Below are positions 21,707 to 49,827 of a stretch of 64,000 nucleotides of DNA, one piece after another; the first letter of the stretch is position 1; every line of letters starts with the position of its first letter. A program made the position numbers and the translations under genes. The notes beneath the pieces were generated by a model that was given only the letters and a program-made list of their open reading frames with translations, was not told where the DNA came from and did not search any database. Source of the DNA: Marinobacter maritimus (GTDB lineage: Bacteria > Pseudomonadota > Gammaproteobacteria > Pseudomonadales > Oleiphilaceae); NCBI RefSeq assembly GCF_007671675.1, contig NZ_VCGW01000002.1, forward strand, positions 62,001-126,000, written 5' to 3'.

Positions 21707-23104
21707 ATGAACCAGAGCCCCGGAACTCTCCAGGCACCCCATACTCCCGATACCATCGCCGCCATAGCGACGGCGCCTGGCCAGGCCGGCGTGGGTATCG
21801 TGCGGGTATCTGGCCCATTGGCAAAGTTCATTGCTTCCACAATGTTGGGGTATATGCCAAAGCCCAGGTATGCGCATTACGGAGCGTTTCTCGATCAGCA
21901 GGGTGTGCTTATTGATGAAGGCATCGGTCTGTTCTTCCCAAACCCCCATTCCTTTACAGGCGAAGACGTATTCGAGTTACAGGGGCACGGTGGCACCGTC
22001 ATTCTGGACTTGCTGTTGCGGGAAGTTTGCCGCCTGGGGAGCCGTTTGGCGCGCCCTGGAGAGTTCTCTGAGCGGGCATTTCTTAACGACAAACTGGACC
22101 TCGCTCAAGCGGAAGCCATTGCTGATCTGATTGAAAGCAGTTCGGAGCAGGCCGCTCGCTGTGCCGTACGATCCATGCAAGGAGTATTTTCTCGGCGCAT
22201 TGAAACTCTGGTTGAAGCCGTTACTCACTTGCGGATTTACGTGGAAGCCGCCATTGATTTCCCCGAAGAGGAAATTGATTTTCTGGCAGATGGCAAGGTT
22301 GCAACCGATCTGCAGACACTGCTCGAACAGCTTCGAGGTATTTTGGGGGAGGCCCAGCAGGGCACGATACTGCGCGACGGTATGAAAGTAGTGATTGCAG
22401 GCCGTCCGAATGCCGGTAAATCAAGTTTGCTAAATGCGTTGGCAGGCCGTGAAGCGGCGATAGTGACTGCTATTGAAGGAACTACCCGGGATGTACTGAG
22501 GGAACATATTCACATTGATGGTATGCCCCTGCATATCATTGATACTGCAGGTCTGCGTGACAGCCCGGACGAAGTGGAACAGATCGGCATTGCCCGTGCC
22601 TGGGATGAAATCCGCCAGGCTGACCGCATTCTGCTTATGGTAGATGCCACCACTACAGATAAAACCAAGCCGCACGAAATCTGGCCGGACTTTATAGATC
22701 AACTGCCGGCTTCAGCACCGGTTACGGTGATCCGTAACAAGGTAGACCTGAGCGGAGAACCCGTGGGGCTCTCAGAGTTATCCACAAACCAGACACCCGT
22801 AATACGCCTTGCCGCAAAATCAACGGAAGGACTGGATGTGCTGCGGGATCACCTGAAGCAATGCATGGGTTTTGCCAGTACCACCGAAGGTGGCTTTCTG
22901 GCTCGTCGCCGGCATCTGGGCGCTCTGGAGCGGGCCAGGGAGTCCCTGTTACAAGGTCAGGCCCAACTGGAGGGCTACGGCGCTGGCGAGTTGCTGGCCG
23001 AAGATTTACGAGCGGCTCAGGATGCGCTCGGAGAGATCACAGGGCAGATTACACCGGATGAGTTGTTAGGGAAGATCTTTGGTTCCTTCTGTATCGGGAA
23101 GTGA
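21707..23104 (+). CDS. mnmE: tRNA modification GTPase MnmE
   Basis: A 465-residue MnmE. With MnmG it adds the aminomethyl-type group to U34 of certain tRNAs. The N-terminal folate-binding domain starts at [21 protein letters not shown]. The G domain shows [14 protein letters not shown] near residue 232, GTTRD, DTAGLRD and NKVD. The C-terminal FCIGK holds the conserved cysteine. A ribosome site (AGAGG) precedes the ATG. Its partner mnmG is about 25 kb away here, with accessory genes in between. The last 39 bases overlap the antisense ArsR-type gene. Confidence 0.97.
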
Positions 23105-25865: not shown

Positions 25866-26183
25866 TTACTGTTCGCTGTAATAAGCAGACATGTCCGCAA
25901 TATCTTCATCGGTCAGTTTTGTTGCCTGCGGTGTCATAACCGCTGACATACCGCCAGTGCGCTCACCCTCACGATAAGCTTTAAGCGCCAGTTCAAGATA
26001 CGCGGATGGCTGGCCAGCAAGGTTTGGGTATATTGGAGCGCTGGACTGGCCATCAACGCCGTGACAGGCGATACAAGTCGCGATTTTTTCCGCACCGGCT
26101 GCCGCATCAGCCGCCAAGTTGGGCAAGGCAACACCGCCAAAAATAACTGCGATCAATATTTGCTTTATGTTTATTAATTTCAT
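25866..26183 (-). CDS. Small class I cytochrome c
   Basis: A 105-residue periplasmic c-type cytochrome. A signal peptide (IAVIFGGVALPNLAA) precedes a single heme site, CIACH, at residues 37-41. The methionine ligand is probably within GGMSAVMTPQA. The pattern YPNLAGQPSAYL is common in cytochrome c4/c553-type donors. It is divergent from the molybdoenzyme operon across a region with an FNR/Anr-type site. It may be the electron partner of the molybdoenzyme or the donor for the di-heme peroxidase; the sequence does not decide. Confidence 0.9.
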   Translation of the reverse strand: MKLINIKQILIAVIFGGVALPNLAADAAAGAEKIATCIACHGVDGQSSAPIYPNLAGQPSAYLELALKAYREGERTGGMSAVMTPQATKLTDEDIADMSAYYSEQ

Positions 26184-26542
26184 TTCTATCTCCCTACCTG
26201 GCTAAACGTGCAGATTTTATGAGTATAAAAGTAACTGCCGGGAAGTGCTGCTTTACAAGCAGGAAATAAATGCGAGGTGCCTGAATCTTGACGTGTATCA
26301 AGATTACGCTAGCGATTCCTGGCAATAGGTATTTAACGTCATCTTAAAGTTTTTAACCTATGCTAGTTTTATAAGCGTTGACCGGTGAAGAAAGCGTTTG
26401 AGTTAGTTTATTATTCTAGCTCCTATCTAATAATTATTCCCATCGGACAACTCGTTAATTTCGAGTGTGACTAACAGGTCATATGTCAGCCGTTGCCGGT
26501 TTTAGCCGGCGACATAAGGCGATTGTCGATGAGGAGAAAGTC
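26184..26542. promoter_or_regulatory. Divergent control region of cytochrome c and molybdoenzyme operon
   Basis: This 359-bp non-coding stretch is rather AT-rich. It holds the FNR/Anr-type site at 26288-26301. A small hairpin in the likely leader (about 26494-26515) pairs GTTGCCGG with CCGGCGAC. The alpha-subunit ribosome site GAGGAG is at 26531-26536. An upstream frame opening at 26483 is not a credible gene start. Confidence 0.6.
26288..26301. promoter_or_regulatory. FNR/Anr-type binding site
   Basis: TTGACGTGTATCAA differs from the FNR/Anr consensus TTGAT-N4-ATCAA by one base. Its centre is about 111 bp from the cytochrome start and 248 bp from the alpha-subunit start. This suggests oxygen-responsive control of one or both genes. 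Confidence 0.8.
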
Positions 26543-29314
26543 ATGGGAATGTGGAAGCTGAAGCGCCGCGATTTCCTCAAAGGTTTGGGCGCAACTGGCA
26601 CCGGTGTGATGCTCAGTGGCAATGTTTGGGCACTGAACCGGCTACAGCCGATCGCAGACACCCTGGCCACAGAATATCCCTACCGCGACTGGGAAGACCT
26701 GTACCGCAACGAGTGGACCTGGGACAGCGTTGGTCACGCTGCGCACTGTATTAACTGCATGGGTAACTGCGCCTGGGACGTGTACGTTAAAGACGGCATC
26801 GTCATTCGCGAAGAGCAGATTGCAAAATACCCCCAGATACATACAAACATTCCGGACGCCAACCCCCGTGGTTGCCAGAAAGGCGCTATTCACTCCACGT
26901 CCATGTACGAAGCTGACCGCTTGCGCTACCCGCTCAAACGTGCCGGCGAGCGCGGCGAAGGCAAATGGCAGCGTATCTCCTGGGATCAGGCCACAGAAGA
27001 AGTGGCTGATAAAATTATCGATATTTTCGTCAAACACGGCCCCGGCAAGCTGAAAACTCACCAGGGATCTGGCAACCAGACCATGGTTCGCCAGTCCGGT
27101 CCTGCCCGCTTTGCCGCCCTGGTTGGTGGCATTCAGCTTGACGGCTTTACCGTGGTTGGCGATTTGATGACCGGCGCCCATTTGGCGTACGGCAACCCGC
27201 TGGAAAGTTTCTCTTCTGATGCCTGGTTCGATGCCGATTACATCATGCTCGGCATGATCAACCCTAACGCTACCCGTATCCCTGATGCCCACTATATCTG
27301 GGAAGCCAAATACAACGGCGCGCGTATTGTCAGTACCTCACCGGATTACAACCCCAGTGCTATTCACACCGACCTGTGGATACCCATCGAACAGGGTTCC
27401 GACCCGTTCCTGGCCATGTCGTTTGTGAACGTAATCATTGAAGAAAAGCTGTACAAGCCGGCGTTCATGAAGGAACAGACCGACTTGCCCATGTTGGTGC
27501 GTGTCGACAACGGACAGCTGCTGCGTGAAAAAGACCTGGTGGAAGGCGGTTCCGACGAAGTGTTCTACCACTGGGACCTGAACACCAACAAGGCAGTTAA
27601 AGCCAAGGGTTCAATGGGTGACGACAACAAAACTCTGGACCTGGGCGACGTAGATCCGGCGATTGAAGGCACTTTCAAAGTGGACGGCATAGCCGTGACC
27701 ACCTCGTTTGAATATGTGAAAAAAGAAGCGGCCAAATACACACCGGAAAAAACCCGGGAGCAAACCGGTATTCACCCGGATATTGTGCGCCAGGAAGCAC
27801 GTCTGCTGGCGAAGTCCAAAAAAGCCATCATCATGCTGGGTTACGTTACCTCCAGTTACTCCAACTGCCTTTACACCGGCTGGGGATATGCACTGACGCT
27901 GGCACTGACCGGGCACGGTGGCCGTACCGGTGGCCTGGATACCTCCTGGGTGGTGTGGAATCATCCGCGCTGGTGGGAACTGGCAGGCTTTGAGGGCAAA
28001 AAATCAGCCCGTCTGGAAGCCGGTGGTTTAGGTGAATTCCTGCGTGGCGGTATGATGGAAGGCGCCCGTAAGCACTTCGACAACAAGAAATTGAAAAAAC
28101 GCGTCGGCTTCGATCTCGATGAGATGGAAGAGATGATGAATGAGTCGATGGATAAAGGCTGGATGCCGTACTACGGCGAAATCAAAGGTATGATTTCGAT
28201 CGCAGACAACACCTTCCGTCGCAACAAAATGAGTAACAAGTATCGCGAAGAGCACCTGCGTCAGGCAGAAGAGCTGTACGTGAACATCAACGTGCGTATG
28301 GACTCCACAGCTGAATGGGCCGACTACGTTCTTCCCGCGGCCAGCCACTATGAAGCCTGGGATATACGTACCCAGGGTTACCACCGCTTCGCCAACATCT
28401 TTACCCGCTCGGTAGAGCCGGTGGGTGAGTCCAAGCCGGACTGGGAAATCATGGCGTTGCTGACCAGGAAGATTCAGGAGCGAGCCATCGCCCGCGGCAT
28501 TGGCCCGATTCAGGATGGTGACGTTACCCGTGATCTGCACACCATTCACGATGACTTCACCCGTCAGGGCACCCTGAACACGGATTACGATGTGCTCAAG
28601 CACATCATCGAAGATTCCCCCGAATTCGGTGGCGTTACGATTGAAGAAGCTGCCGAAAAAGGCTTCATCACCATGAACGAGCACGCTGGCCTGAACCAGC
28701 CGCTCAAGCCAAATGAGGGATACAACCCGTTTACCGCGCAAACCGATGGCAAAACGCCCTATGAAACCCTGACCGGTCGCATCACCTTCTACTGTGACCA
28801 CCCGTGGTTCAAGAAGCTGGATTCTGTAGTACCCACAGCTCGGTTGCACGCAGGGCCCAAAGCATCCAACTATCCGTTGGAGTTTTATTCGCCACACGCG
28901 CGCTGGGGTATCCATTCCAACTGGCGCAGTAACAAGTACTTGCTGCGGTTGCAGCGTGGTGAACCGAACATCTACATCAACCCGCAGCTGGCTGAGCAAC
29001 GGGGTATCAAGGACGGTGACACGGTTCGGCTGTTCAACGCCAACGGTGACTTTTTTGCCCAGGCCAAGTTCTATCCAAGCATTCCGGTGAACTCGATCAT
29101 GATGGAGCACGGCTGGGAGCCGCATCAGTACATTCATCGCAGAAACATGAACGTGTCCAACGCCGTGTTCCTGCAACCGCTGGAACTGGCGGGCGGTTGG
29201 GGGCACCTGAAGTTTATTTACGCCAAATGGAACGCCAACCAGCATATCCATGAAAGCTGCTACGACATAGAGCTGGCAAAACCTGAAGACATCACCGACC
29301 CACGAGCCGTTTAA
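26543..29314 (+). CDS. Type II DMSO-reductase-family molybdopterin enzyme, alpha subunit
   Basis: A 923-residue catalytic subunit exported folded by the Tat system (KLKRRDFLKGLG at the N-terminus). The first Fe-S cluster is bound by His68, Cys72, Cys76 and Cys111, the same H-x3-C-x3-C-x34-C spacing as in NarG. The probable molybdenum ligand is Asp207 in GDLMTG, as in the type II group. That group includes ethylbenzene, dimethylsulfide and steroid C25 dehydrogenases and selenate, chlorate and nitrate reductases. The subunit set and length fit the periplasmic members. The start at 26543 has GAGGAG 6 bases upstream. The substrate, and whether it oxidises or reduces, cannot be read here. Confidence 0.92.
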   Translation: MGMWKLKRRDFLKGLGATGTGVMLSGNVWALNRLQPIADTLATEYPYRDWEDLYRNEWTWDSVGHAAHCINCMGNCAWDVYVKDGIVIREEQIAKYPQIHTNIPDANPRGCQKGAIHSTSMYEADRLRYPLKRAGERGEGKWQRISWDQATEEVADKIIDIFVKHGPGKLKTHQGSGNQTMVRQSGPARFAALVGGIQLDGFTVVGDLMTGAHLAYGNPLESFSSDAWFDADYIMLGMINPNATRIPDAHYIWEAKYNGARIVSTSPDYNPSAIHTDLWIPIEQGSDPFLAMSFVNVIIEEKLYKPAFMKEQTDLPMLVRVDNGQLLREKDLVEGGSDEVFYHWDLNTNKAVKAKGSMGDDNKTLDLGDVDPAIEGTFKVDGIAVTTSFEYVKKEAAKYTPEKTREQTGIHPDIVRQEARLLAKSKKAIIMLGYVTSSYSNCLYTGWGYALTLALTGHGGRTGGLDTSWVVWNHPRWWELAGFEGKKSARLEAGGLGEFLRGGMMEGARKHFDNKKLKKRVGFDLDEMEEMMNESMDKGWMPYYGEIKGMISIADNTFRRNKMSNKYREEHLRQAEELYVNINVRMDSTAEWADYVLPAASHYEAWDIRTQGYHRFANIFTRSVEPVGESKPDWEIMALLTRKIQERAIARGIGPIQDGDVTRDLHTIHDDFTRQGTLNTDYDVLKHIIEDSPEFGGVTIEEAAEKGFITMNEHAGLNQPLKPNEGYNPFTAQTDGKTPYETLTGRITFYCDHPWFKKLDSVVPTARLHAGPKASNYPLEFYSPHARWGIHSNWRSNKYLLRLQRGEPNIYINPQLAEQRGIKDGDTVRLFNANGDFFAQAKFYPSIPVNSIMMEHGWEPHQYIHRRNMNVSNAVFLQPLELAGGWGHLKFIYAKWNANQHIHESCYDIELAKPEDITDPRAV

Positions 29315-29326
29315 GAGGAGATTATC

Positions 29327-30307
29327 ATGACTGTTAAACGCCAACTCAGCATGGTCATGGATTTGAATAAATGCATCGGCTGCCAGACCTGTACAGCAGC
29401 GTGCAAACTGATGTGGACCAACCGTAACGGCCGAGAGTTCATGTACTGGAACAACGTGGAATCCCAGCCAGGTAAAGGTTACCCAAGGGATTACGAGAAT
29501 ATGGGCGGTGGTTTCGACGCCGACGGTGCTTTGCGTCTCGGGCGTCAGCCCAGCCAGGAAGACTATGGTATTCCCTGGGAGTATAACTACGAAGAAGCGC
29601 TGATGACCGGCACCGATCCCTGGTTGCGCCCCAATGTGAAGCCCACCTGGGGCGCCAACTGGGACGAAGACGAAGGCACAGGTGACTACCCCAACAGTTA
29701 CTATTTTTATCTGCCGCGTTTGTGCAACCACTGCGCCAACCCGGCGTGTCTGGCGGCCTGTACCCGCAACGCCATCTACAAGCGCCAGGAAGACGGCATT
29801 GTGTTGGTGGATCAGGAGCGTTGCCGTGGCTATCGCTACTGCGTTAATGCGTGCCCGTACAAGAAAATCTACTTCAACGAGGAGATTTCCAAATCCGAGA
29901 AGTGCATTTTCTGTTACCCGCGGATTGAAAAAGGTTTGCCCACCGCCTGCGCCCAGCAGTGTGTAGGGCGTATTCGCTGGATAGGTTACCGCGATGATGA
30001 AGACGGACCGATTCATCAGCTGGTCGATAAATACAAAGTGGCGTTGCCGCTGCACGCAGAGTGGGGAACCCAGCCCAACGTGTTCTACGTGCCGCCCACG
30101 TCACCGCCGAAGTTTGGCGAAAACGGTGAGCAGCTGGACGAGTCCCGCATTCCGCTGTCGTACCTGGAAAGCCTGTTTGGCCCCCGTACCGGCGAAGCTC
30201 TCGATACTCTCGCAGAAGCTCGTCAGGCGAAAGCCGATGGCAGAGGCAGTGAACTGATGGACATTCTGATTGGCTACAAACATTCCGAAATGTTCAAGCT
30301 GAGCTGA
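29327..30307 (+). CDS. Type II molybdoenzyme, iron-sulfur beta subunit
   Basis: A 326-residue electron-transfer subunit with four cysteine groups for Fe-S clusters. The first group, CIGCQTCTAAC, starts at residue 16. CNHCANPACLAAC, CRGYRYCVNACPYKK and CIFC with CAQQC follow. In CRGYRYC a tyrosine replaces the central cysteine, which predicts one [3Fe-4S] cluster, as in EbdB and NarH (where the residue is Trp). It has no signal peptide and should travel through Tat with the alpha subunit. It lies 12 bases after alpha, with GAGGAG upstream. Confidence 0.93.
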   Translation: MTVKRQLSMVMDLNKCIGCQTCTAACKLMWTNRNGREFMYWNNVESQPGKGYPRDYENMGGGFDADGALRLGRQPSQEDYGIPWEYNYEEALMTGTDPWLRPNVKPTWGANWDEDEGTGDYPNSYYFYLPRLCNHCANPACLAACTRNAIYKRQEDGIVLVDQERCRGYRYCVNACPYKKIYFNEEISKSEKCIFCYPRIEKGLPTACAQQCVGRIRWIGYRDDEDGPIHQLVDKYKVALPLHAEWGTQPNVFYVPPTSPPKFGENGEQLDESRIPLSYLESLFGPRTGEALDTLAEARQAKADGRGSELMDILIGYKHSEMFKLS

Positions 30308-30323
30308 AGCCGGGAGGCACGCA

Positions 30324-31067
30324 ATGACGCAATTAACAGCCCCCGCTGTTCGGCAGTATGAATTTGAGCGTGCCGGGGCCCGCGGGGCGATTTATCGCCT
30401 CGCAGCCGTAGCCCTGGGTTACCCGTTGGACGAAACCTGGGAGGCACTGGCCGATGGCCGCTTGCAAGCGGCCCTGAGCGGCGCCTTGCAAACACTGGGT
30501 GATGAACCCTGGCCTACGGTTGATGCAAGCTTCAGTTCAGAAGATCTGCAAGTGGGCTACATGGCTACCTTTGTTCACGGCAAACTGGGTAAGCCCAGAG
30601 TGCCACTGGTGGCAAGTGCCTACGGCGGGCTGATTGGCGGCCTGACACCGGGCGCCTATATGCTGAATGTGCAGGCGTTCTACACCCACTTTGGCCTGAC
30701 GGCGGCGGTGGAAGATGAAGGGCACAAGGATCAGCCCGATCACCTGTTAGCGATGCTGGAATTTTGTGCGCTGCTGTGCCATCTGGAGGCTCAGGCCCTG
30801 GAAAACAGCCGCGACGCCGCGCCCTATCGGCGCGCTCAAAGGGATTTTCTGGTGCGATACCTGAGACCCTTGCTACAGGCCATTCGCGCAACATATGCCC
30901 AAGAGAATCAGTACGGGCTGGATGCCAACCTGGCACATCTGGTGAAGGTGCTTCCGGACTGGACCCATACCCAACAGCTGGCGCTGGAAACCCAGGTAGG
31001 GCCAAGCCCCGAAGAGGGTGTGAAAAAAGCCGGATCCGAACTCGCCAGCCAGCCCATGTGGGACTGA
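30324..31067 (+). CDS. TorD-family chaperone for the type II molybdoenzyme (delta)
   Basis: A 247-residue cytoplasmic helical protein of the TorD/NarJ/DdhD type. These bind the Tat signal and help load the molybdenum cofactor before export, and are not part of the mature enzyme. The segment EDLQVGYMATFV followed by PRVPLVASAYGG, and the helix QPDHLLAMLEFCALLCHLE, fit the family (the D/NH-L-x-x-x-L-E-F pattern). GGGAGG precedes the ATG. It sits between the beta and gamma genes, as in ethylbenzene and dimethylsulfide dehydrogenase operons. Confidence 0.87.
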   Translation: MTQLTAPAVRQYEFERAGARGAIYRLAAVALGYPLDETWEALADGRLQAALSGALQTLGDEPWPTVDASFSSEDLQVGYMATFVHGKLGKPRVPLVASAYGGLIGGLTPGAYMLNVQAFYTHFGLTAAVEDEGHKDQPDHLLAMLEFCALLCHLEAQALENSRDAAPYRRAQRDFLVRYLRPLLQAIRATYAQENQYGLDANLAHLVKVLPDWTHTQQLALETQVGPSPEEGVKKAGSELASQPMWD

Positions 31068-31097
31068 ATCCAATCGATTAGCATGAGGAACCATGCC

Positions 31098-31928
31098 ATG
31101 ACATCGCAAGACATAAAAAACGGCCTTCTGGTAAACCGTATTGGCCGGTTAACAGGCTCGCTTACCCTGGCGGCTTGTATGTTGGCAAGCGCTAATGCGT
31201 TGGCTGATCAAAGCGACATGAACCCCAACGTGACGGAAATAAAAGCCTGGGATACGGTGAAGGTTTCACGCATTCCTGCCAGCATCTATTTGCGCACCCA
31301 GGATGACCCGGACGACCTGATCTGGGATCGTGTGCCGGAATACCGAACAGCTTTGCTGCCGGCGCCACCCGTGCATCAATCCGTTGGCCTGCGCTTTGAA
31401 GAAGGCTCTACCCGTACCAAGCACCTGTATTTTCAGGTAGCCCGCTCCGATGAACGTTTTTACATTCGCTTGCGCTGGAAAGACGCCACCGAAGATAGGA
31501 ACACCACCGTTGATCGATACCGTGACGGCGTTGCGGTGCAATACGCCCTGAATGATGTGGATACCTCGTACATGATGGGTTCCGGCCACGATGACCCGGT
31601 GAACATCTGGTACTGGCGCGCTGACAAAGAACAGATCGAGAATCTGGCCGCCGGCGGTTATGGCAGCACGACCACCTTGCCGCAACAGAATGTCTCAGGC
31701 GCCAGCGCCTATTTTACCGACCCGGTTCCTGCAGACAGGGAGTGGCACGTGGTGATGTCACGGCCGTTTGAATCTGACGGCGAGTACGCTGTGAATCTTG
31801 ATCGCGAAACCGTACCCATGGGCTTTGCCGTGTGGCAGGGTAGTGATAACGAACGCGATGGCAACAAACGCGTGACCCACACCTGGATCCTGTTGGACAC
31901 AAGTCTGGACAGTGATACTGCGAAGTAA
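31098..31928 (+). CDS. Type II molybdoenzyme, heme-b gamma subunit
   Basis: A 276-residue periplasmic protein related to the heme-b-binding subunits EbdC, DdhC, SerC and ClrC. A Sec signal peptide (LTGSLTLAACMLASANALA) is cut near residue 38-40. The mature part is beta-rich with VGLRFEEG, FYIRLRWKDAT and the late FAVWQGSDNERDG, which fit this family. The heme ligands (Met and Lys in EbdC) cannot be assigned without alignment. The ATG at 31098 has AGGAA 7 bases before it; an ATG at 31083 lacks a ribosome site. It probably passes electrons between the beta subunit and a cytochrome c. Confidence 0.86.
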   Translation: MTSQDIKNGLLVNRIGRLTGSLTLAACMLASANALADQSDMNPNVTEIKAWDTVKVSRIPASIYLRTQDDPDDLIWDRVPEYRTALLPAPPVHQSVGLRFEEGSTRTKHLYFQVARSDERFYIRLRWKDATEDRNTTVDRYRDGVAVQYALNDVDTSYMMGSGHDDPVNIWYWRADKEQIENLAAGGYGSTTTLPQQNVSGASAYFTDPVPADREWHVVMSRPFESDGEYAVNLDRETVPMGFAVWQGSDNERDGNKRVTHTWILLDTSLDSDTAK

Positions 31929-31937
31929 GGACCTGAT

Positions 31938-33029
31938 ATGTCGGTTTCCCATTTCCCACCCCGTGATCCGCTGGCTTTGGTGCCAGAGGACTGCGGCCTG
32001 GGCCATGCCTGCCAGTTTTGCCCGCACGAAGAAGAGTGCGAGCTGGATAAGGGCCAGCACGAAAAACGGCTGATTGAATCCCGGCTGGCGCAGGTGGGCC
32101 AGATCATAATGGTTATGGCCAACAAAGGCGGAGTGGGCAAAAGCACCGTGTCCGCCAACGTAGCGGCGGGTCTGGCGGTACAGCGTTACCGTGTAGGGGT
32201 AGCCGATGCCGACATTCACGGTCCGAATCAGAGCCGTTTTTTTGGTTTTGTGGGCCAGCGGGTGCGCTTGGGTAAACACGGTCTGCCACCGAAAGACTTT
32301 GAGTTTTTTGGTCTGGAACATCCGGTGAAAGTAGGCTCACTGGCGTTTATGATGGAGCGTGATGACACGCCCATTGTCTGGCGTGATGCCTACAAACACG
32401 ACTTTATGCACCACCTGATCGGATCCTTTGACTGGGGTCCGCTGGATTTTCTTGTTATCGATATGCCGCCGGGCACAGGTAACGAATTGATCACTCTGGC
32501 AGACATGCTTGAGGGTCATGATGTCGCTGCATTACTGGCCACGACACCACAGGAAGTGGCGTTGATGGACAGCCTGAAGGCCGTGCGTTTTTGCCAGGAG
32601 CGTGGCATGCCGTTGATTGGCGTGGTGGAAAATATGGCAGGCGTAACCTGCCCCCACTGCAGCGGTCATTTTCATGTATTCCCACGCTCTCATCTGGCGG
32701 AAGCTCTGGCAGCAGCCGATGTGGAGTCCTTGGCACAAATCCCCTTGTCGCTGGCGCTTTCCAGTGGCTCCGATACGGGCGTGCCGATTGTACTCTCAGA
32801 ACCTGATGGCCCTGAGGCGCAAGCCTTCGCCCCCGCTGTCGCTGCGTGCGTTGCTCATGCCCGGGCCGGTTTTGCTGAAGCTGCAAAGCAATCCCTGCAT
32901 GGGCTCACCCAGGCAGGACTGCAGAGTGAAGAGCTTGAGCTGGCACTGGGAGCAGTTCCACCAGAGCAAAGAGAAGCTCTGCGCCAACAGCTGGAATCTT
33001 TGTTGGGTAACAGTAACGAGCCTTCCTGA
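31938..33029 (+). CDS. Mrp/Nbp35-like P-loop ATPase with N-terminal Cys cluster
   Basis: A 363-residue MinD/ParA-superfamily ATPase of the Mrp (ApbC/Nbp35) type, whose members carry and transfer Fe-S clusters. The deviant Walker A motif NKGGVGKST is at residues 62-70. VIDMPPGTGNE and the CPHC pair at 238-241 match Mrp/Nbp35. Unusually, Cys19, 25, 28 and 34 form C-x5-C-x2-C-x5-C, resembling the N-terminal cluster site of eukaryotic Nbp35 in the last three spacings. The gene starts 9 bases after the gamma subunit and is clearly in the operon. A role in Fe-S assembly for the enzyme is an inference. Confidence 0.88.
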   Translation: MSVSHFPPRDPLALVPEDCGLGHACQFCPHEEECELDKGQHEKRLIESRLAQVGQIIMVMANKGGVGKSTVSANVAAGLAVQRYRVGVADADIHGPNQSRFFGFVGQRVRLGKHGLPPKDFEFFGLEHPVKVGSLAFMMERDDTPIVWRDAYKHDFMHHLIGSFDWGPLDFLVIDMPPGTGNELITLADMLEGHDVAALLATTPQEVALMDSLKAVRFCQERGMPLIGVVENMAGVTCPHCSGHFHVFPRSHLAEALAAADVESLAQIPLSLALSSGSDTGVPIVLSEPDGPEAQAFAPAVAACVAHARAGFAEAAKQSLHGLTQAGLQSEELELALGAVPPEQREALRQQLESLLGNSNEPS

Positions 33030-33054
33030 CACACCCTTATTCGAGAGTATTGCC

Positions 33055-34926
33055 ATGTCTGACACTCGCGCGCCAGAACGCCGTCGCTTTTTCCAACAAC
33101 TGCTCGGGACGGATAATGCCTCTGCGCCTGGCCGTGCCCCCTGGCACCGGGTACCGGAAGTGGGTGCCGGCGATGGCGATGTGCTGTGGTCGGGCTGGAC
33201 CGGTAACGGTGAACTGTTTGTTGTGGGTGATGAAGGTATGGTGCTGCGTTATACCGGTAGCGCCGATGCTGGCGGGCCGCAGTGGCAGCCCATGACGCTG
33301 CCCACACGGTTGCCGCTGCACGGTATCTGGGGACCGGCTGCCGATAACCTCTTTGCCGTCGGCTGGATGGGTGCGCTGCTGCACTATGACGGCGCCCAAT
33401 GGCAATTGCTACGGGGTGGGGTGATTAATGAGAAAGGCGGGCGCTTTGCCGCTTGTGAAGAAAACACTCCGTTATTTGCCATTGATGGTAATGACCAGGG
33501 CCAGGCCTGGGCGGTCGGTGACGATGGCATAATTCTGCATTTTGACGGCGCTGACTGGCAGCGCGAACAAAGCCCGACACAGGTCAATTTACGAGCGATT
33601 GCATGCGCGCCCAATAATACGGTTTACGCCGCGGGTGGCGAAGGCACCGTGCTTCGACGCGACAGCGACGGGTTGTGGACAAAACTGGATTGCCCGCTGG
33701 GTTCCGGGTTTCACTCCTTGCTGGTAATGGACGATGGCACATTGCTGTTAGGCGGTGGCCGGTACTTCGTTGATCAGGGCGGTTTTCGGGGCGAACTGGT
33801 GCGCTACCAGAACGGCCAGTTCCAGGCGCTCAAATTTGACGATCCGATGCCACGCCTGAGGGCCCTCAAGCCTTACAAGGATGGCGTGCTGATTGTTGGC
33901 GATCAGGGCCATTTATACTATTTCAAGGATCTGCGGCTGGACAAGCTCGAGAGCAACAGCCACCACGATCTGATGGATATTATCGTGTTATCCACAGGCG
34001 AAGCTCTGGTGGTCGGTGACTTTGGCACCATCATGACCGCGGCAGAGGATTTCACCCAGGCACTTGCGCCGCCGCCTATGGCCGCTGCTGCCAGCCCCTG
34101 GGAAGCCATGGTCGTGCCGACCAAAGGTCAGCTCTGGGGGTTTACTGAAGGCCTTGATGGCACTTGTTATGCCTGTGGTGAATCCGGCACGGTGATGCGC
34201 CTGCAAGGTGAGAGCTGGGAGTTGTTGCCGGCGCCCAGTGATCTGGCGGTGCACTGTCTGTGGGATACCGGCGCCGGTTTATTTGCGGCGGGTCAACTCG
34301 GGCGCATTTACCGCTTCGACGGCCAGCAATGGACCCTGCATTACGACCTGAATCTGGATCTCACCATTCTTGCCATGTGGGGCAGCAGCCCGGAATCCCT
34401 GTATGCGGTGGGCGATGAAGGTCTGGTGCTGCACTTTGACGGTCTGCGCTGGCAGCGCATGCCCAGCGGAACCCAGTCGGCGCTTTACAGTCTTTGGGCC
34501 CTGGATGACAAACACATGCTGGCACCCGGTGATTTCGGGTTGGTGCTGAGATACAACGGCAAAGACTGGAGTGACTTCAATGTGGGCACCGAGAATTTTC
34601 TCTACGGTATCTGGGGTGACAGCCTGAGTAACATTTACGCCGTCGGCCTGTCGGGCACCCTGGCTCACTTCAATGGTCAGCGCTGGCAGATGATGGCCAC
34701 TCGTTTGCGGGAAGATTTGCTGTCGATCTCCGGCTCGGACGCTGCAGGCGCCTTTGCCGTTGGTACCCGAGGCTGTGTGCTGCGCCTTGATGGCGATCAG
34801 TGGGAGCCGGAACCCAGCGCCAGTGATGCCGGCTTGCGCGCGGTTTGCGCCACCCGTAGCGGAGCGGTTTACGCCGTGGGTGATAGGGGAACAGTTTTGC
34901 GTCGGAAGAACCCGGGAACGCTCTGA
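33055..34926 (+). CDS. Protein of 14 tandem beta-propeller-type repeats
   Basis: A 623-residue protein made almost wholly of repeats of about 40-45 residues with the core pattern (V/A)xGxxGxxLxxxGxxW. I count 14, from about residue 45 to the end, which would make two seven-bladed propellers. Examples are LFAVGWMGALLHYDGAQW, SLYAVGDEGLVLHFDG and NIYAVGLSGTLAHFNG. No signal peptide is visible: the N-terminal RRRFFQQLLG recalls a Tat motif but no hydrophobic stretch follows. The ATG at 33055 is 25 bases after the ATPase stop. A frame opening at 32674 overlaps the ATPase and is rejected. The function is unknown; a cytoplasmic assembly or scaffold role for the molybdoenzyme is possible. Confidence 0.85.
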   Translation: MSDTRAPERRRFFQQLLGTDNASAPGRAPWHRVPEVGAGDGDVLWSGWTGNGELFVVGDEGMVLRYTGSADAGGPQWQPMTLPTRLPLHGIWGPAADNLFAVGWMGALLHYDGAQWQLLRGGVINEKGGRFAACEENTPLFAIDGNDQGQAWAVGDDGIILHFDGADWQREQSPTQVNLRAIACAPNNTVYAAGGEGTVLRRDSDGLWTKLDCPLGSGFHSLLVMDDGTLLLGGGRYFVDQGGFRGELVRYQNGQFQALKFDDPMPRLRALKPYKDGVLIVGDQGHLYYFKDLRLDKLESNSHHDLMDIIVLSTGEALVVGDFGTIMTAAEDFTQALAPPPMAAAASPWEAMVVPTKGQLWGFTEGLDGTCYACGESGTVMRLQGESWELLPAPSDLAVHCLWDTGAGLFAAGQLGRIYRFDGQQWTLHYDLNLDLTILAMWGSSPESLYAVGDEGLVLHFDGLRWQRMPSGTQSALYSLWALDDKHMLAPGDFGLVLRYNGKDWSDFNVGTENFLYGIWGDSLSNIYAVGLSGTLAHFNGQRWQMMATRLREDLLSISGSDAAGAFAVGTRGCVLRLDGDQWEPEPSASDAGLRAVCATRSGAVYAVGDRGTVLRRKNPGTL

Positions 34927-34981: not shown

Positions 34982-35014
34982 AACTTTCTGACATTGATCG
35001 AAAGGAAGGATGAT

Positions 35015-37123
35015 ATGTTGTTTTACCGGGTATTGATGGGTGCGGCCTGCAGCGCATTGGTGTTCAACCCGTCTGCACTGGCACAACCCACGGAGTTGGG
35101 AGAGCTGGTCGTAACCGCGTCCGGTTTTGAGCAGAGCCAGACCGCTGCGCCAGCCAGCATCACGGTTATTTCCGGTGAGCAGATCCGCAACGAACAGGCA
35201 TTCAGCCTCACCGATATTCTGGATGATGTGGAAGGCCTGGACGTTAGCGGCGCAGCCGGTAAAACCGGCGGCTTTGATATTCGTATGCGCGGTATGCCGT
35301 CAGAATACACGCTGATTCTGATCGACGGTCGCCGGCAGAACACCGCCGGTAGTGTTACCCCCAACGGCTTTGGTCAGACTGCCACCAGCTTTTTGCCACC
35401 ACCTTCAGCCATTGAACGCATAGAAGTTGTGCGTGGCCCCATGTCGACTCTTTATGGTTCTGATGCCATGGGCGGTGTTATCAACATCATTACCCGAAAA
35501 GTAAGTTCCGAATGGGCATCTACAGTCACCGCAGAAACGACCCTTAATCAGGACAGCGATTTTGGCGATAGCCGGGCCTACAGCGCTTATACCAACGGTC
35601 CACTTGTGGATGACCTGATTGGTTTTCAGCTTCGTGGTCGCTGGTTTGAACGGGATGAGTCCACGCTGGAATATCTTGATCTGAATGGTGATCCAATTGA
35701 AGTCAGCACCCGCGGGCCCAGCCCGGTAGAGTCTGAACAGTATACGGTTGGAGGCCGCTTTACCGTAACGCCGGGTGAGTCAAATGACTTCTGGCTGGAT
35801 ATCGAAAGCAGCAGGCAGGATTACGATAACTCGGAAGGTCAATTGGGCACCTTAGGTGTACAAGGTTACGGCTCTGAGCTGGAATTTGATCGCGACCAGT
35901 TTGCAGTGGGCCATACTGGCCGTTTTTCTATCGGCACGCTGGAAACCAGCATCATGAGAAACGTCACTGAAACCGGTGGCCGGATTATTCCTAATGGTGT
36001 ACCTGGAAAAGTTGCGGGTTCTGACCGGGAACTGAAGGCGGAAAATCGGGTGATCGACAGCAAGCTGGTTATGCCTGTTGCTAACCATGTGGTGACTGTG
36101 GGTGGCCAGTGGTTTGATGCGCGGATGACCGATGGTGTCGCCGTGGACGAGTTCAAGCAGAAAACCAAGGCAGTGTTTGTTGAAGACGAGTGGTTCCTTA
36201 CTGGCGATCTTGCACTTACTCTTGGTGGACGATACGACCACCACGATTCCTTCGGAGGTCAGTTCAGCCCGCGGGCTTATCTGGTTTGGAACTCCACATC
36301 TGAACTGACCATCAAAGGTGGCGTAAGCCGCGGTTATAAAACACCCGGGCTTGAGCAACTTGCGCCAGGTATTGTCGGTTTTAGCGGGCAGGGAACAATC
36401 CCGTTGTTTGGTAACCCGGATCTCAAACCGGAGAAATCAACGTCAACTGAACTGGCTGTGGTGTACGAAAAGCCGGCCGGCTATCGCGTGAGTGCGACAG
36501 TTTTCTACAATGAGTTCACCGATAAAATTGCTGAAGGGCCTGACCTGCTGAATTGCAGTTACGCAGCAGACCCCAATCGCCCGGGTTGTGTGGATAAAGG
36601 CAACTGGCCATTGACGGATGTATTTGGCCAGGATCTGAATATTGATGAGGCCATCACCCAGGGTGTTGAGCTAAGTGGTTCAGTGCCCTTTGCTCAGGAC
36701 TGGCGTCTGGCTGCGAACTACACCTACACCGACAGTGAGCAGAAATCCGGAGAGAGCAAAGGTGAGCCGCTTACGGATACGCCGGAGCACATGGCCAATA
36801 TCTCCTTGCGCTGGGCGCCTTCGTTGCGCTGGTCGGCCTTTGTGAAGGCCCAGTACGAAAGTGAGCGTTATCGTGCCCGGGACCGTATACGGGGAGCCGC
36901 ATCCTTTGCCGATCTCGGAGACTTCAAATCCGTCACCCTTGTACATCTGGGGGGGCAATTCAAGGCGTCAGAAAACCTCGGCTTCAGTGCCACGATATAC
37001 AATCTTCTCGATGAAGACTTCATCGAATACCGCGCCTATGACAATGGCGCGCAATACGGAAACCTCTACGCCAACACAGAAGAAGGCCGGCGCCTGTGGC
37101 TATCGGCGACCTACGCGTTCTGA
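35015..37123 (+). CDS. TonB-dependent outer-membrane receptor (siderophore type)
   Basis: A 702-residue receptor of the FepA/CirA type. A signal peptide (about residues 1-24, ending ALA-Q) is followed by a TonB-box-like LGELVVTAS. The plug domain has DILDDVEGLDVSGAAGK, IRMRGMPSEYTLILIDGRRQN, and RIEVVRGPMSTLYGSDAMGGVINIITRK. The barrel ends in the aromatic terminus ATYAF. Likely ligands are ferric catecholate-type siderophores. A Fur-like box precedes it. The ATG at 35015 has AAGGAAGGA upstream. It has no TonB, ExbBD or ABC genes beside it. Confidence 0.92.
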   Translation: MLFYRVLMGAACSALVFNPSALAQPTELGELVVTASGFEQSQTAAPASITVISGEQIRNEQAFSLTDILDDVEGLDVSGAAGKTGGFDIRMRGMPSEYTLILIDGRRQNTAGSVTPNGFGQTATSFLPPPSAIERIEVVRGPMSTLYGSDAMGGVINIITRKVSSEWASTVTAETTLNQDSDFGDSRAYSAYTNGPLVDDLIGFQLRGRWFERDESTLEYLDLNGDPIEVSTRGPSPVESEQYTVGGRFTVTPGESNDFWLDIESSRQDYDNSEGQLGTLGVQGYGSELEFDRDQFAVGHTGRFSIGTLETSIMRNVTETGGRIIPNGVPGKVAGSDRELKAENRVIDSKLVMPVANHVVTVGGQWFDARMTDGVAVDEFKQKTKAVFVEDEWFLTGDLALTLGGRYDHHDSFGGQFSPRAYLVWNSTSELTIKGGVSRGYKTPGLEQLAPGIVGFSGQGTIPLFGNPDLKPEKSTSTELAVVYEKPAGYRVSATVFYNEFTDKIAEGPDLLNCSYAADPNRPGCVDKGNWPLTDVFGQDLNIDEAITQGVELSGSVPFAQDWRLAANYTYTDSEQKSGESKGEPLTDTPEHMANISLRWAPSLRWSAFVKAQYESERYRARDRIRGAASFADLGDFKSVTLVHLGGQFKASENLGFSATIYNLLDEDFIEYRAYDNGAQYGNLYANTEEGRRLWLSATYAF

Positions 37124-37143
37124 GGGTTTTACCTTGCTTGTTG

Positions 37144-37171
37144 AGTAAAGTTGACGGTCGTCAATTTTACT
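37144..37171. promoter_or_regulatory. 28-bp palindrome with an FNR/Dnr-like core
   Basis: A near-perfect inverted repeat (13-bp arms, one G-T mismatch) ends 21 bp after the receptor stop begins its downstream gap. Its core at 37151-37164 is TTGACGGTCGTCAA, which fits TTGAT-N4-(A/G)TCAA with one or two changes. It may be the Anr/Dnr site for ccp, a terminator for the receptor gene, or both. Confidence 0.55.
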
Positions 37172-37197
37172 TTCGGTAATTATTTCAACAGCTCCCG

Positions 37198-37217
37198 GTT
37201 CATTTACAAACATGAAC
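37198..37217. promoter_or_regulatory. Inverted repeat upstream of ccp
   Basis: GTTCAT and ATGAAC form a perfect repeat around an 8-base spacer, 63 bp before the ccp ATG. The size suits a dimeric repressor such as a TetR type. No regulator gene is adjacent. Confidence 0.45.
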
Positions 37218-37279
37218 GTTCTGTTAGTTTTAGGCCAGAAGGACCTGCAATTGAAACAGATGAACCGGGAGAGGAAAAA

Positions 37280-38332
37280 ATGGAACGAAAATCATTGATG
37301 CTGGCACTTGCTGTCGGTCTGGGCTTCTATGCCGGAGTGGCCACGGCTGATGATTTACAGGAGCGTGCGCAGGACATGTTTGCAGCGGTACCTCAATACC
37401 CACCGGTTATTGATGGTAATGAGCTTACGGAAGCAAAACTCGAGCTTGGCAAAATGCTGTTTTTTGAGCCGCGTTTGTCTGCAAGCCATCTGATCAGCTG
37501 CAATACCTGCCACAATGTAGGCATGGGCGGGCATGATTATCTCCCCGTCTCTATTGGCCACGGCTGGCAAAAAGGACCGCGTAACTCGCCAACGGTGTTT
37601 AACGCAGTCTTTAACGCCGCTCAGTTCTGGGATGGTCGGGCTGCGGATCTGGCGGAACAGGCCAAGGGGCCCGTTCAGGCTGGCGTTGAAATGAGCAGCA
37701 CGCCAGAGCGGGTTGTTGCAACTTTGTCGAGCATGCCCGCTTATGTTGAAAAGTTTGGCAATGCGTTTCCTGGTGAGGATGATCCGGTAACCTTCAACAA
37801 TATGGCGATCGCCATTGAGGCCTTCGAGGCAACGCTGATCACGCCAGATGCTGACTTTGACACGTTCCTGCGCGGTAATACTTCGGCGCTTGATGAGCAG
37901 GAAAAAGAAGGTTTGGCGCTGTTCATGGACAAAGGCTGTGTGGCTTGCCATGCCGGTACCAATCTGGGTGGCCAGGCTTACTATCCGTTTGGTCTGGTGA
38001 CCAAACCCGGTGCTGACATTCTGCCCTCCGGTGATAAAGGCCGCTTTGCAGTGACCTCTACCGCCTCGGATGAGTATGTATTCCGGGCCTCACCGCTGCG
38101 TAACATCGAGCTGACCGCCCCATACTTCCATTCCGGAGCCGTTTGGAGTCTGGAAGAAGCCGTTGCCGTTATGGGTACGGCTCAGTTGGGTGCCGAATTG
38201 AACGATAAGGAAGTAAAGTCCATAACAGCATTCCTGAAAACGCTGACCGGCAAGGTCCCGGAAATCCGTTACCCCGAGTTGCCTCCCAGCACAGACGATA
38301 CCCCAAGACCCGAATCCATGGTTCTGCAGTAG
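37280..38332 (+). CDS. ccp: Di-heme cytochrome c peroxidase
   Basis: A 350-residue periplasmic peroxidase that reduces hydrogen peroxide with electrons from a small cytochrome c. A signal peptide (LALAVGLGFYAGVATA) is followed by two heme c sites, CNTCH near residue 74 and CVACH near 217. The stretches ELGKMLFFEPRLS, GHGWQKGPRNSPTVFNAVFN and AEQAKGPVQAGVEMS agree, from memory, with the Marinobacter hydrocarbonoclasticus enzyme. The ATG at 37280 has GAGG 5 bases before it; the frame opening at 37151 runs through the control region and is not used. Such genes are commonly FNR/Anr-controlled. Confidence 0.95.
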   Translation: MERKSLMLALAVGLGFYAGVATADDLQERAQDMFAAVPQYPPVIDGNELTEAKLELGKMLFFEPRLSASHLISCNTCHNVGMGGHDYLPVSIGHGWQKGPRNSPTVFNAVFNAAQFWDGRAADLAEQAKGPVQAGVEMSSTPERVVATLSSMPAYVEKFGNAFPGEDDPVTFNNMAIAIEAFEATLITPDADFDTFLRGNTSALDEQEKEGLALFMDKGCVACHAGTNLGGQAYYPFGLVTKPGADILPSGDKGRFAVTSTASDEYVFRASPLRNIELTAPYFHSGAVWSLEEAVAVMGTAQLGAELNDKEVKSITAFLKTLTGKVPEIRYPELPPSTDDTPRPESMVLQ

Positions 38333-47940: not shown

Positions 47941-49827
47941 GTGGATTTTCCAACGCGTTTCGATGTCATTGTCATTGGTGGCGGCCATGCCGGTACCGAA
48001 GCCGCGCTTGCGGCTGCGCGAATGGGCTCGCAAACCCTGCTGCTGACTCATAACATTGAAACCTTGGGCCAGATGTCCTGTAACCCGGCCATCGGGGGCA
48101 TTGGCAAAAGCCATCTGGTCAAGGAAATTGACGCTCTTGGCGGCGCCATGGCTCAGGCCACAGACTTGTCCGGAATCCAGTTTCGCGTGCTCAACAGCCG
48201 TAAAGGCCCTGCGGTGCGGGCCACCCGTGCCCAGGCCGACCGGGTCCTGTACAAGGCCGCGATTCGCCACACACTGGAAAACCAGCCCAACCTGACGCTG
48301 TTCCAGCAAGCAGCAGACGATCTGATTGTCGAAAACGATCAGGTTACCGGAGTGGTGTCCCAGACCGGTATCCGTTTCAATGCCAAAACGGTGGTATTGA
48401 CGACCGGTACCTTCCTGGGCGGCGTTATCCATATTGGCATGCAGCACCACGCGGGTGGCCGTGCCGGTGATGCGCCTGCCAACGCACTGGCGCAACGTCT
48501 GCGGGATCTGCCTTTCAATGTGGGCCGGCTCAAAACCGGAACACCGCCGCGTATTGATGCCCGCAGTGTCGATTTTTCCGTGATGCAGGAGCAGTGGGGC
48601 GATAACCCTACTCCGGTCATGTCGTTTATTGGCAGCCGTGATCAGCACCCTGAGCAGGTCTGCTGCTATGTAACCCGCACCACTGAGCAGACCCACGATA
48701 TTATCCGCAGTGGTTTTGATCGCTCGCCCATGTTTGCCGGCAACATTGAAGGCATTGGGCCGCGCTACTGCCCGTCTATTGAAGACAAGGTCAGTCGCTT
48801 TGCCGACAAGGATTCGCACCAGATTTTTGTGGAGCCTGAGGGCCTCACTACCCATGAGCTATACCCGAACGGTATTTCTACCAGCTTGCCGTTTGACATT
48901 CAGCTTGCGGCAGTCCGTACGATTCCGGGCTTTGAAAACGCCCATATCACACGGCCTGGCTACGCTATCGAATACGACTATCTGAACCCACAGGACTTGC
49001 GCCACACGCTGGAAACCAAGTTCATTCAGGGTCTCTATTTTGCTGGCCAGATCAATGGCACCACTGGTTATGAAGAAGCCGGAGCCCAGGGCTTGCTCGC
49101 GGGCATTAACGCAGCCCTGCGCTCACAGGAGAAGAGTGAATGGTATCCACGCAGGGATGAAGCTTATCTGGGTGTGCTGGTCGACGACCTGATCACTATG
49201 GGCACCAGCGAGCCATACCGCATGTTTACCAGCCGGGCTGAGTACCGTCTGATTTTGCGCGAAGACAACGCCGATCTGCGATTGACCGAAGCCGGCCGCA
49301 AGCTTGGCTTGGTTGATGATGAGCGCTGGAAGAAATTCAATGACAAGTTTGAAGCCATAGCGACTGAGCGTAAGCGCCTGGAGTCCACCCGTATTCATCC
49401 TGCAACCGAGGCTGGTGAACGCGCCAATGGCTTTCTCAAGCAGCCAATGACCCGGGATCACACCCTGGCGGAACTGCTTCGTCGCCCGGAGGTTGTGTAC
49501 AGCCATATTGCCGAGATCGGCGCCGCCCAGGCGGATGACCCGGTTGTGGCAGAGCAGGTGGAAATCGAAATCAAATACGAAGGCTACATTTCACGCCAGA
49601 CTGAAGAAATTGAGCGCCTGCGCCGGAATGAGAACACCGCGCTGCCCATAGATCTGGATTACGATGTCATCGGCGGCCTGTCCAACGAGATCAAACAGAA
49701 ACTGAAAGAGGTTCGCCCCGAAACGGTGGCTCAGGCCTCGCGGATTCAAGGGGTTACGCCGGCTGCGATCTCGCAGATTCTGGTGAATCTGAAAAAGCGC
49801 GAGCTTCTGCGCAAACAGAGCGCCTGA
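47941..49827 (+). CDS. mnmG: tRNA uridine-5-carboxymethylaminomethyl modification enzyme MnmG
   Basis: A 628-residue FAD protein that, with MnmE, modifies the wobble uridine of several tRNAs. The dinucleotide site [21 protein letters not shown] is at residues 9-29. [24 protein letters not shown] and [24 protein letters not shown] are further signatures. It starts with GTG after a GAGGTGA site. rsmG follows 8 bases later. The usual near neighbour mnmE is 25 kb upstream. Confidence 0.98.

Follow-up and report, generated by a model that had tools for sequence, protein, structure and literature searches.

A window of 64,000 nucleotides from Marinobacter maritimus (contig NZ_VCGW01000002.1, positions 62,001 to 126,000) contains, at window positions 26543-34926, a six-gene operon in which the alpha, beta, delta and gamma genes of a type II dimethyl sulfoxide (DMSO) reductase-family molybdoenzyme are followed by genes for an Mrp/Nbp35-type ATPase and a 14-repeat protein predicted to fold as a double beta-propeller. 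This ATPase-propeller pair is a fixture of the enzyme clade that unites the enzyme of Rhodovulum sulfidophilum, very probably dimethyl sulfide dehydrogenase (Ddh), with the chlorite dismutase-linked enzyme (Clr type) of the chlorate reducer Stutzerimonas chloritidismutans AW-1. Judging from sequence, we think it probable that the operon encodes a Ddh-type enzyme together with its own cytoplasmic maturation module, in which the ATPase would load iron-sulfur (Fe-S) clusters and the propeller would serve as an adaptor before export by the twin-arginine translocation (Tat) pathway.

Co-occurrence of the pair with one enzyme clade

We scanned one genome per species (84,980 species) for the alpha subunit and retained the best 80 matches, which correspond to 77 loci and not to the full total. 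A tree of alpha against DdhA-type and ClrA proteins, which the preliminary description of this DNA had proposed, was built quickly from 87 rows (Shimodaira-Hasegawa-like approximate likelihood-ratio test [SH-aLRT] support, no bootstrap, long branches flagged; SerA, PcrA and EbdA outside the tree). It places the window alpha in a 66-row clade (SH-aLRT 100) with the R. sulfidophilum protein P0166 and the AW-1 protein, to the exclusion of the Ideonella ClrA group. Besides the window, AW-1 and R. sulfidophilum, the in-clade set has 57 other loci, which makes 60 distinct ones. It derives from 61 entries, because two contigs of a single AW-1 operon (L036 and L110, overlapping by 1641 bases at 99.8%) were counted once. 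Three loci that end within or just past alpha or beta (L034, L058, L094) were left out of the counts, and the tree labels "mrp only" of L028 and L099 denote distant proteins outside the in-clade totals.

All 57 in-clade loci with downstream DNA carry the ATPase gene, across alpha-, beta- and gammaproteobacteria, and 51 of them carry the propeller gene too; these 51 loci have all six genes together. The six loci without a propeller gene comprise four in or near Chromatiaceae and two from Rhodospira. The whole genomes of three of the six also lack a propeller match, and another, L079, offers just 625 bases after its ATPase gene. Ten Ideonella-type ClrA loci have neither gene, nine of them informatively, as L089 ends 6 bases after gamma. 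Spacing is tight throughout: the gamma-ATPase gap has a median of 10 bases (57 loci) and the ATPase-propeller gap a median of 11.5 (50 loci, omitting L044, whose propeller gene lies in two frames), with an overlap or zero gap in 20 of the 50 and a four-base overlap in 13. The preliminary description had read tight spacing in the window as a sign of a shared role; co-occurrence strongly supports this, and cytoplasmic Fe-S assembly before Tat export, which it had suggested, would be the best explanation.

Three partly overlapping genome samples (the first two share genomes) were searched for these genes apart from each other. Of 293 genomes from the order, one and the same set of five has the in-clade alpha, the ATPase (E<=1e-60) and a full-length propeller, at adjoining coordinates; four other genomes have weak propeller-like matches only (E 1.8e-13 to 5.1e-9), and seven have a distant alpha (39-44% identity, first half), none with the ATPase. 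In the phylum sample (398 genomes), the window genome alone yields an alpha match at E<=1e-100 or an ATPase match at E<=1e-60; 40 of the 397 others have an Mrp match at E<=1e-48, and the best of the other Mrp matches start at residue 40 or later with E 1.6e-53 or weaker. The third sample, 236 genomes from the R. imhoffii family, has the ATPase in three genomes, each time next to genes for chaperone, gamma and propeller; these three are identical in DNA to L069, L068 and L078, already among the 60, and the other 233 genomes have no match. The preliminary description had named occurrence of the pair without a molybdoenzyme as evidence against a shared role; the ATPase family was not found apart from the enzyme in any of the 293, 398 or 236 genomes, nor was a full-length propeller in the 293.

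These distributions bear on the idea that the pair consists of passenger genes moved by horizontal operon transfer and without a role for the enzyme. The operon is patchy, since 5 of the 61 genomes from the genus, counting the window genome, have an in-clade alpha, and some species have tandem copies. Passengers would, however, hardly be expected to show an ATPase kept in every informative locus across three proteobacterial classes and absent elsewhere in the genomes searched, and we regard this idea as highly improbable.

Some loci depart from the standard arrangement. In Oceanisphaera/Oceanimonas-type genomes (L046, L076, L049) the operon stands in tandem: alpha and beta are each present as two full genes, separated by 5 to 9 kb, and second copies are partly cut or reduced. 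The propeller match of L087 stops after 90 residues and was counted as present; in L087 and genome G350 (Labrenzia) the propeller gene is apparently split, with residues 6-94 matching at the operon and residues 103-617 matching elsewhere on that contig, at a distance of about 103 kb. In L044 (13273-18436), from a metagenome-derived Halomonas, the propeller and beta matches are both broken in two, which points to frameshifts or assembly errors.

Layout of the operon

The six open reading frames lie on one strand where the preliminary description had placed them, and its gaps of 9 bases (gamma to ATPase) and 25 bases (ATPase to repeat gene) are exact. The genes and their main internal features, with profile scores, are:

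26543-29314, forward strand: alpha subunit, type II DMSO reductase family, with Tat signal (TIGR03479, 1223.7 bits; cut-off 984.75)
29327-30307, forward strand: beta subunit, 15 cysteines (TIGR03478, 576.1 bits; cut-off 480.7)
30324-31067, forward strand: delta, NarJ/TorD-type chaperone (PF02613, 62 bits; TIGR03482, 140 bits)
31083-31928, forward strand: gamma, heme b subunit, signal peptide by eye (PF09459; TIGR03477, 193.7 bits; cut-off 169.85)
31938-33029, forward strand: dedicated Mrp/Nbp35-type P-loop NTPase, 363 residues (PF10609, 232.8 bits; cut-off 27.1)
31992-32039, forward strand: N-terminal cysteine motif of the NTPase, C19-x5-C25-x2-C28-x5-C34
32649-32660, forward strand: CPHC, the family CxxC motif of the NTPase (C238, C241), invariant in two alignments
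32844-33026, forward strand: C-terminal tail of the NTPase (start by eye), nearly confined to loci having a propeller gene
33055-34926, forward strand: 14-repeat protein, 623 residues, predicted double seven-bladed beta-propeller (repeat pattern, AlphaFold2 model), without an ordinary signal peptide
33079-33084, forward strand: twin arginine (R9 R10), invariant, within a Tat-like N-terminus that lacks a hydrophobic (h-) region (32/32 in one alignment, 50/50 in a wider set)
34090-34917, forward strand: second propeller, residues 346-621

Alpha, beta and gamma each exceed the curated NCBIfam cut-offs of the type II family, whose members carry molybdenum bis-pyranopterin guanine dinucleotide, five Fe-S clusters and heme b across alpha, beta and gamma. 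The chaperone falls just short of the TIGR03482 cut-off (140 against 152.3 bits) but is still a chaperone by family and position, since it matches PF02613. An in-frame ATG at 26483 offers an alternative start that would lengthen alpha by 20 residues; the longest alpha reading frame of the relative L016 begins at the codon equivalent to 26543. The alpha motif H68-x3-C72-x3-C76-x34-C111 is invariant across six aligned rows, and we take these residues to be the ligands of cluster FS0; the 15-cysteine pattern of beta presumably holds three 4Fe-4S clusters and one 3Fe-4S cluster.

Enzyme identity and likely substrate

Protein P0166 of R. sulfidophilum shares 69% identity with the window alpha, is the sole match at E<=1e-100 in the genome of that species searched and, going by its species and its clade, is very likely the studied DdhA. 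A relative from R. imhoffii carries the source label dimethylsulfide dehydrogenase. In AW-1 a gene 62.5% identical to the chlorite dismutase (Cld) of Ideonella lies 2-3 kb upstream of alpha. In the window genome the Cld profile PF06778 finds no match, whereas it is positive in 7 of 14 control genomes. A tblastn search with Ideonella Cld over the window and loci L027-L105 matched, besides Ideonella's own locus, only that of AW-1 (L036). The lack of a Cld match favours a dehydrogenase of dimethyl sulfide or a similar compound in the window genome, and a chlorate reductase role, conceivable though it is without Cld, is not favoured there. With moderate confidence, then, the window enzyme may be described as a putative dehydrogenase of dimethyl sulfide or a related small molecule.

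The preliminary description had left a range of substrates from hydrocarbons and dimethyl sulfide to selenate and chlorate. Membership of the Ddh/AW-1-Clr clade keeps dimethyl sulfide and chlorate within that range and makes hydrocarbons and selenate less likely, with SerA and EbdA outside the tree. Against the ethylbenzene dehydrogenase equivalog NF042978, alpha scores 429 bits, below the cut-off of 2000. Its best sequence matches in the PDB are the type II chains 5e7o and 4ydd (which we take to be perchlorate reductase), then ethylbenzene dehydrogenase, an order that arises because only some relatives have solved structures.

The ATPase is a distinct Mrp type

The protein bears out its earlier assignment as an Mrp/Nbp35-type ATPase in its PF10609 match, its deviant Walker A motif KGGVGKST (residues 63-70, invariant) and its invariant CxxC motif of the bridging-cluster kind. 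The dedicated ATPases form a clade of their own, apart from 18 other Mrps, and all 57 have the N-terminal C-x5-C-x2-C-x5-C motif, which is found in none of the 18 (several of them with a late start or stop and thus partly incomplete N-termini). Residues 12-60 used as query gave 38 matches, all to PF10609 proteins and 37 of them already in the earlier ATPase search (39 word-sharing candidates; a distant Nbp35 would escape). Eukaryotic-type Nbp35 has the N-terminal ferredoxin-like motif CX13CX2CX5C; compared by motif and not by alignment, the CX2CX5C core is common to both and the first spacing differs.

Where a propeller is present, the C-terminal tail after the CPxC motif is long, at 116-139 residues in 50 of 51 loci; in all six loci that lack one it measures 65-80 residues. 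The exception is L077, which has a propeller and a short tail. The window genome encodes another Mrp, 36% identical to the ATPase. Against the MrpORP profile NF041136 the ATPase scores 235.8 bits, below the cut-off of 450. A protein 87% identical to the window ATPase (P0005) is labelled Streptosporangium jomthongense, an actinobacterial name that is probably a naming error.

The repeat protein is a predicted double propeller

The count of 14 repeats given in the preliminary description holds, as 13 regular motifs found by pattern and one irregular unit, around residues 234-252, recognised by eye. In the AlphaFold2 model (mean predicted local distance difference test score 90.5) there are 56 strands, which may be read as 14 blades of four and hence as two predicted seven-bladed propellers. 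Pfam matches are weak, PF14870 (Ycf48) reaching 28.2 bits against a cut-off of 27, and profile matches to Ycf48 chains (E 0.008-0.012) rank below those to other proteins at 5e-6 and 2e-4. Pfam reveals no Fer4 domain with ferredoxin-type cysteine motifs in this protein.

The twin arginine near the N-terminus is invariant in 50 of 50 propellers (L044 again omitted), and the highest hydropathy over 14 residues after it has a median of -0.07 (n=50), compared with 1.23 in 60 in-clade alphas and -0.39 in NapF. We infer a cytoplasmic site for the propeller. It could instead be exported to the periplasm as a Ycf48-like assembly factor or a structural partner of the enzyme, leaving the ATPase alone as a cytoplasmic maturation factor. 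This would suit the weak Ycf48 similarity, the invariant twin arginine, the six loci with an ATPase and no propeller, and the 2 of 50 N-termini whose hydropathy reaches the alpha range. Yet most of the proteins lack a hydrophobic h-region after the twin arginine, and the N-terminal pattern, by eye, resembles that of cytoplasmic NapF, so that we hold a periplasmic propeller to be distinctly improbable.

A candidate maturation module and the weight of evidence

In the scheme we infer for a Ddh-type enzyme with its own maturation module, the ATPase would hold an Fe-S cluster at the bridging CxxC site, and probably another at the four-cysteine N-terminus, and, ahead of Tat export, would hand clusters on to apo-alpha, apo-beta or both. 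The propeller would be an adaptor, one surface docking the C-terminal tail of the ATPase, while its Tat-like N-terminal peptide would engage the signal-peptide machinery (the delta chaperone or the alpha/beta precursor). ATPase and precursor would thus be brought together near the Tat-signal checkpoint, and loading and export might be coordinated much as NapF serves NapA.

The same proteins might instead form an ATP-driven proofreading gate for Tat export, in which the pair and the delta chaperone would control the quality of the molybdenum cofactor or of folding without any transfer of clusters. A Tat-like propeller N-terminus, a chaperone encoded in the operon and the occurrence of such propellers in many protein complexes all suit a gate of this kind. 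It sits poorly with an ATPase from the Fe-S carrier family PF10609, whose CxxC and invariant four-cysteine motifs are hard to explain without a metal cluster, and we judge it unlikely.

Several considerations weigh against a dedicated maturation module. All functional readings offered here depend on inference from sequence. Ideonella ClrABC and other type II operons, with similar cofactors, lack the pair, which means that the enzyme chemistry does not demand it; likewise the six loci without a propeller mean that the propeller is not essential to the ATPase. The link between tail and propeller may be mere adjacency, given the short tail of L077 and the possible single deletion of tail and propeller in Rhodospira. 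The other Mrp of the window genome could serve the enzyme, and the Tat-like motif could signify real export by way of an atypical signal. The propeller fold is generic, with CIAO1 matching at the level of G-beta and designed propellers, and the likeness of the propeller and NapF N-termini is short and judged by eye. NapF itself is reported to matter only marginally in both E. coli and Wolinella, and some nap operons lack it (PMC10609526).

Were the module confirmed, both the four-gene ddh unit and the AW-1-type chlorate reductase unit would gain two genes, with consequences for heterologous expression and for genome-based prediction of dimethyl sulfide oxidisers or chlorate reducers. The pair is undescribed in the open literature searched, as judged from abstracts and passages; key chlorate papers lie outside that search and may mention it. 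The placement of Fe-S clusters in Tat-exported molybdoenzymes is unsettled, with open questions reported for NapA (PMC10609526). A target-specific carrier and adaptor fixed beside one enzyme clade would offer a system in which such placement is testable.

Regulation and genomic setting

Two features lie upstream of alpha:

26288-26301, forward strand: FNR/Anr-like site TTGACGTGTATCAA, 255 bases before the alpha start
25866-26183, reverse strand: divergent small c-type cytochrome, 105 residues, with CIACH haem motif and signal peptide by eye (PF00034, 48.9 bits)

A site within one mismatch of the FNR/Anr consensus is present in 13 of 58 upstream regions, where mononucleotide shuffles would yield about 0.5; the loci are related to one another. 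A pattern scan for promoters and terminators found sites no commoner than in shuffles (5 against 5.9 and 10 against 9.5). Two-component genes lie near about 20 of 59 loci compared, mostly in alphaproteobacteria and purple sulfur bacteria (Pfam on one example each). These sites and genes point to regulation of the operons, and the pair might itself be a sensing unit, with the ATPase as an Fe-S or oxygen sensor and the propeller as a ligand sensor tuning expression or activity of the enzyme. But regulators of the usual kinds are already nearby, Pfam finds no DNA-binding or signalling domain in either protein, and the pair is tightly coupled to the structural genes; a sensing role is very unlikely.

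The small cytochrome c, a possible electron partner of the enzyme, has tblastn matches at 21 of the 58 in-clade loci searched; in 18 of these the gene closely precedes alpha, and in the other 3 it lies downstream of the operon. Downstream in the window (34994-38332) are genes for a TonB-dependent receptor and a MauG/MbnH-like di-heme enzyme, present in 4 and 3 of 59 loci compared, the window included; being rare, they are probably outside the operon unit. The operon and its neighbours stand between mnmE (21707-23104) and mnmG (47941-49827), near rnpA-yidD-yidC, parA-like and ATP-synthase genes, a setting that suggests an accessory respiratory operon within a usually origin-near core region. 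The yidC-mnmE neighbourhood is common to six other loci.

Comparison with known systems

The preliminary description had supposed that no well-described type II operon includes the pair, which proved incorrect: it stands downstream of the probable ddhA of R. sulfidophilum and in the cld-linked operon of AW-1. The R. sulfidophilum locus has the same six genes in the same order (alpha 69% identical), whereas the published unit, ddhABDC, comprises four genes; the window differs in its upstream cytochrome c gene, and many alphaproteobacterial loci in a nearby two-component pair. AW-1 likewise has the same six genes (on two contigs), with alpha 89%, ATPase 84% and propeller 80% identical to those of the window. 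ClrABDC of Ideonella dechloratans has the same four enzyme genes in the same order (alpha 44% identical) but neither ATPase nor propeller, and belongs to a separate clade.

For the proposed functions there are partial precedents. Members of the Mrp/NBP35 family transfer Fe-S clusters, and MrpORP is reported to give clusters to its own complex partners (PMC6345978), so that the operon-borne Mrp of Desulfovibrio may serve as a precedent for the window ATPase, from which it differs in its Di-Nase domain and its N-terminal cysteine pattern. NapF is reported to be cytoplasmic, to bind NapA and to have been needed for in vitro Fe-S reconstitution of R. sphaeroides NapA (PMC10609526). By eye, NapF and the propeller share a twin-arginine N-terminus without an h-region and a tryptophan some 20 residues later; NapF binds four [4Fe-4S] clusters, whereas the window protein is a predicted double propeller without such motifs.

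Three haloarchaeal plasmids (L028, L142, L143) carry type II operons that include genes for Rieske and cytochrome b proteins, and in all three the chaperone gene is followed by genes for a hypothetical protein, a HEAT-repeat protein and a P-loop NTPase. The one haloarchaeal ATPase scanned by Pfam is a NUBPL protein with DUF59-type and DUF2249 domains. Orthology with the dedicated ATPase was rejected, as the haloarchaeal proteins group with other Mrps and lack the four-cysteine motif; the grouping of two of them with ordinary Mrps in the tree looks like independent recruitment. MMS19, a component of eukaryotic cytosolic Fe-S protein assembly (CIA), is also a HEAT-repeat protein. In CIA, Nbp35 is reported to act with the WD40 propeller Cia1 and with MMS19 (PMC6006210). 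The likeness to the window operon is one of fold and family, an Nbp35-type ATPase with a cysteine-rich N-terminus beside a predicted seven-bladed propeller, and the window differs in having two such propellers in one chain and a single dedicated target. We therefore offer only tentatively, and as an analogy in which the module would work like CIA without being CIA itself, the broader suggestion that the operon is a bacterial, operon-sized counterpart of CIA targeting, in which an Nbp35-like carrier and a Tat-mimic propeller adaptor would serve one Tat-exported molybdoenzyme, and that haloarchaea may have arrived independently at a similar arrangement, their NUBPL ATPase and HEAT-repeat protein mirroring the use of Cia1 and MMS19.

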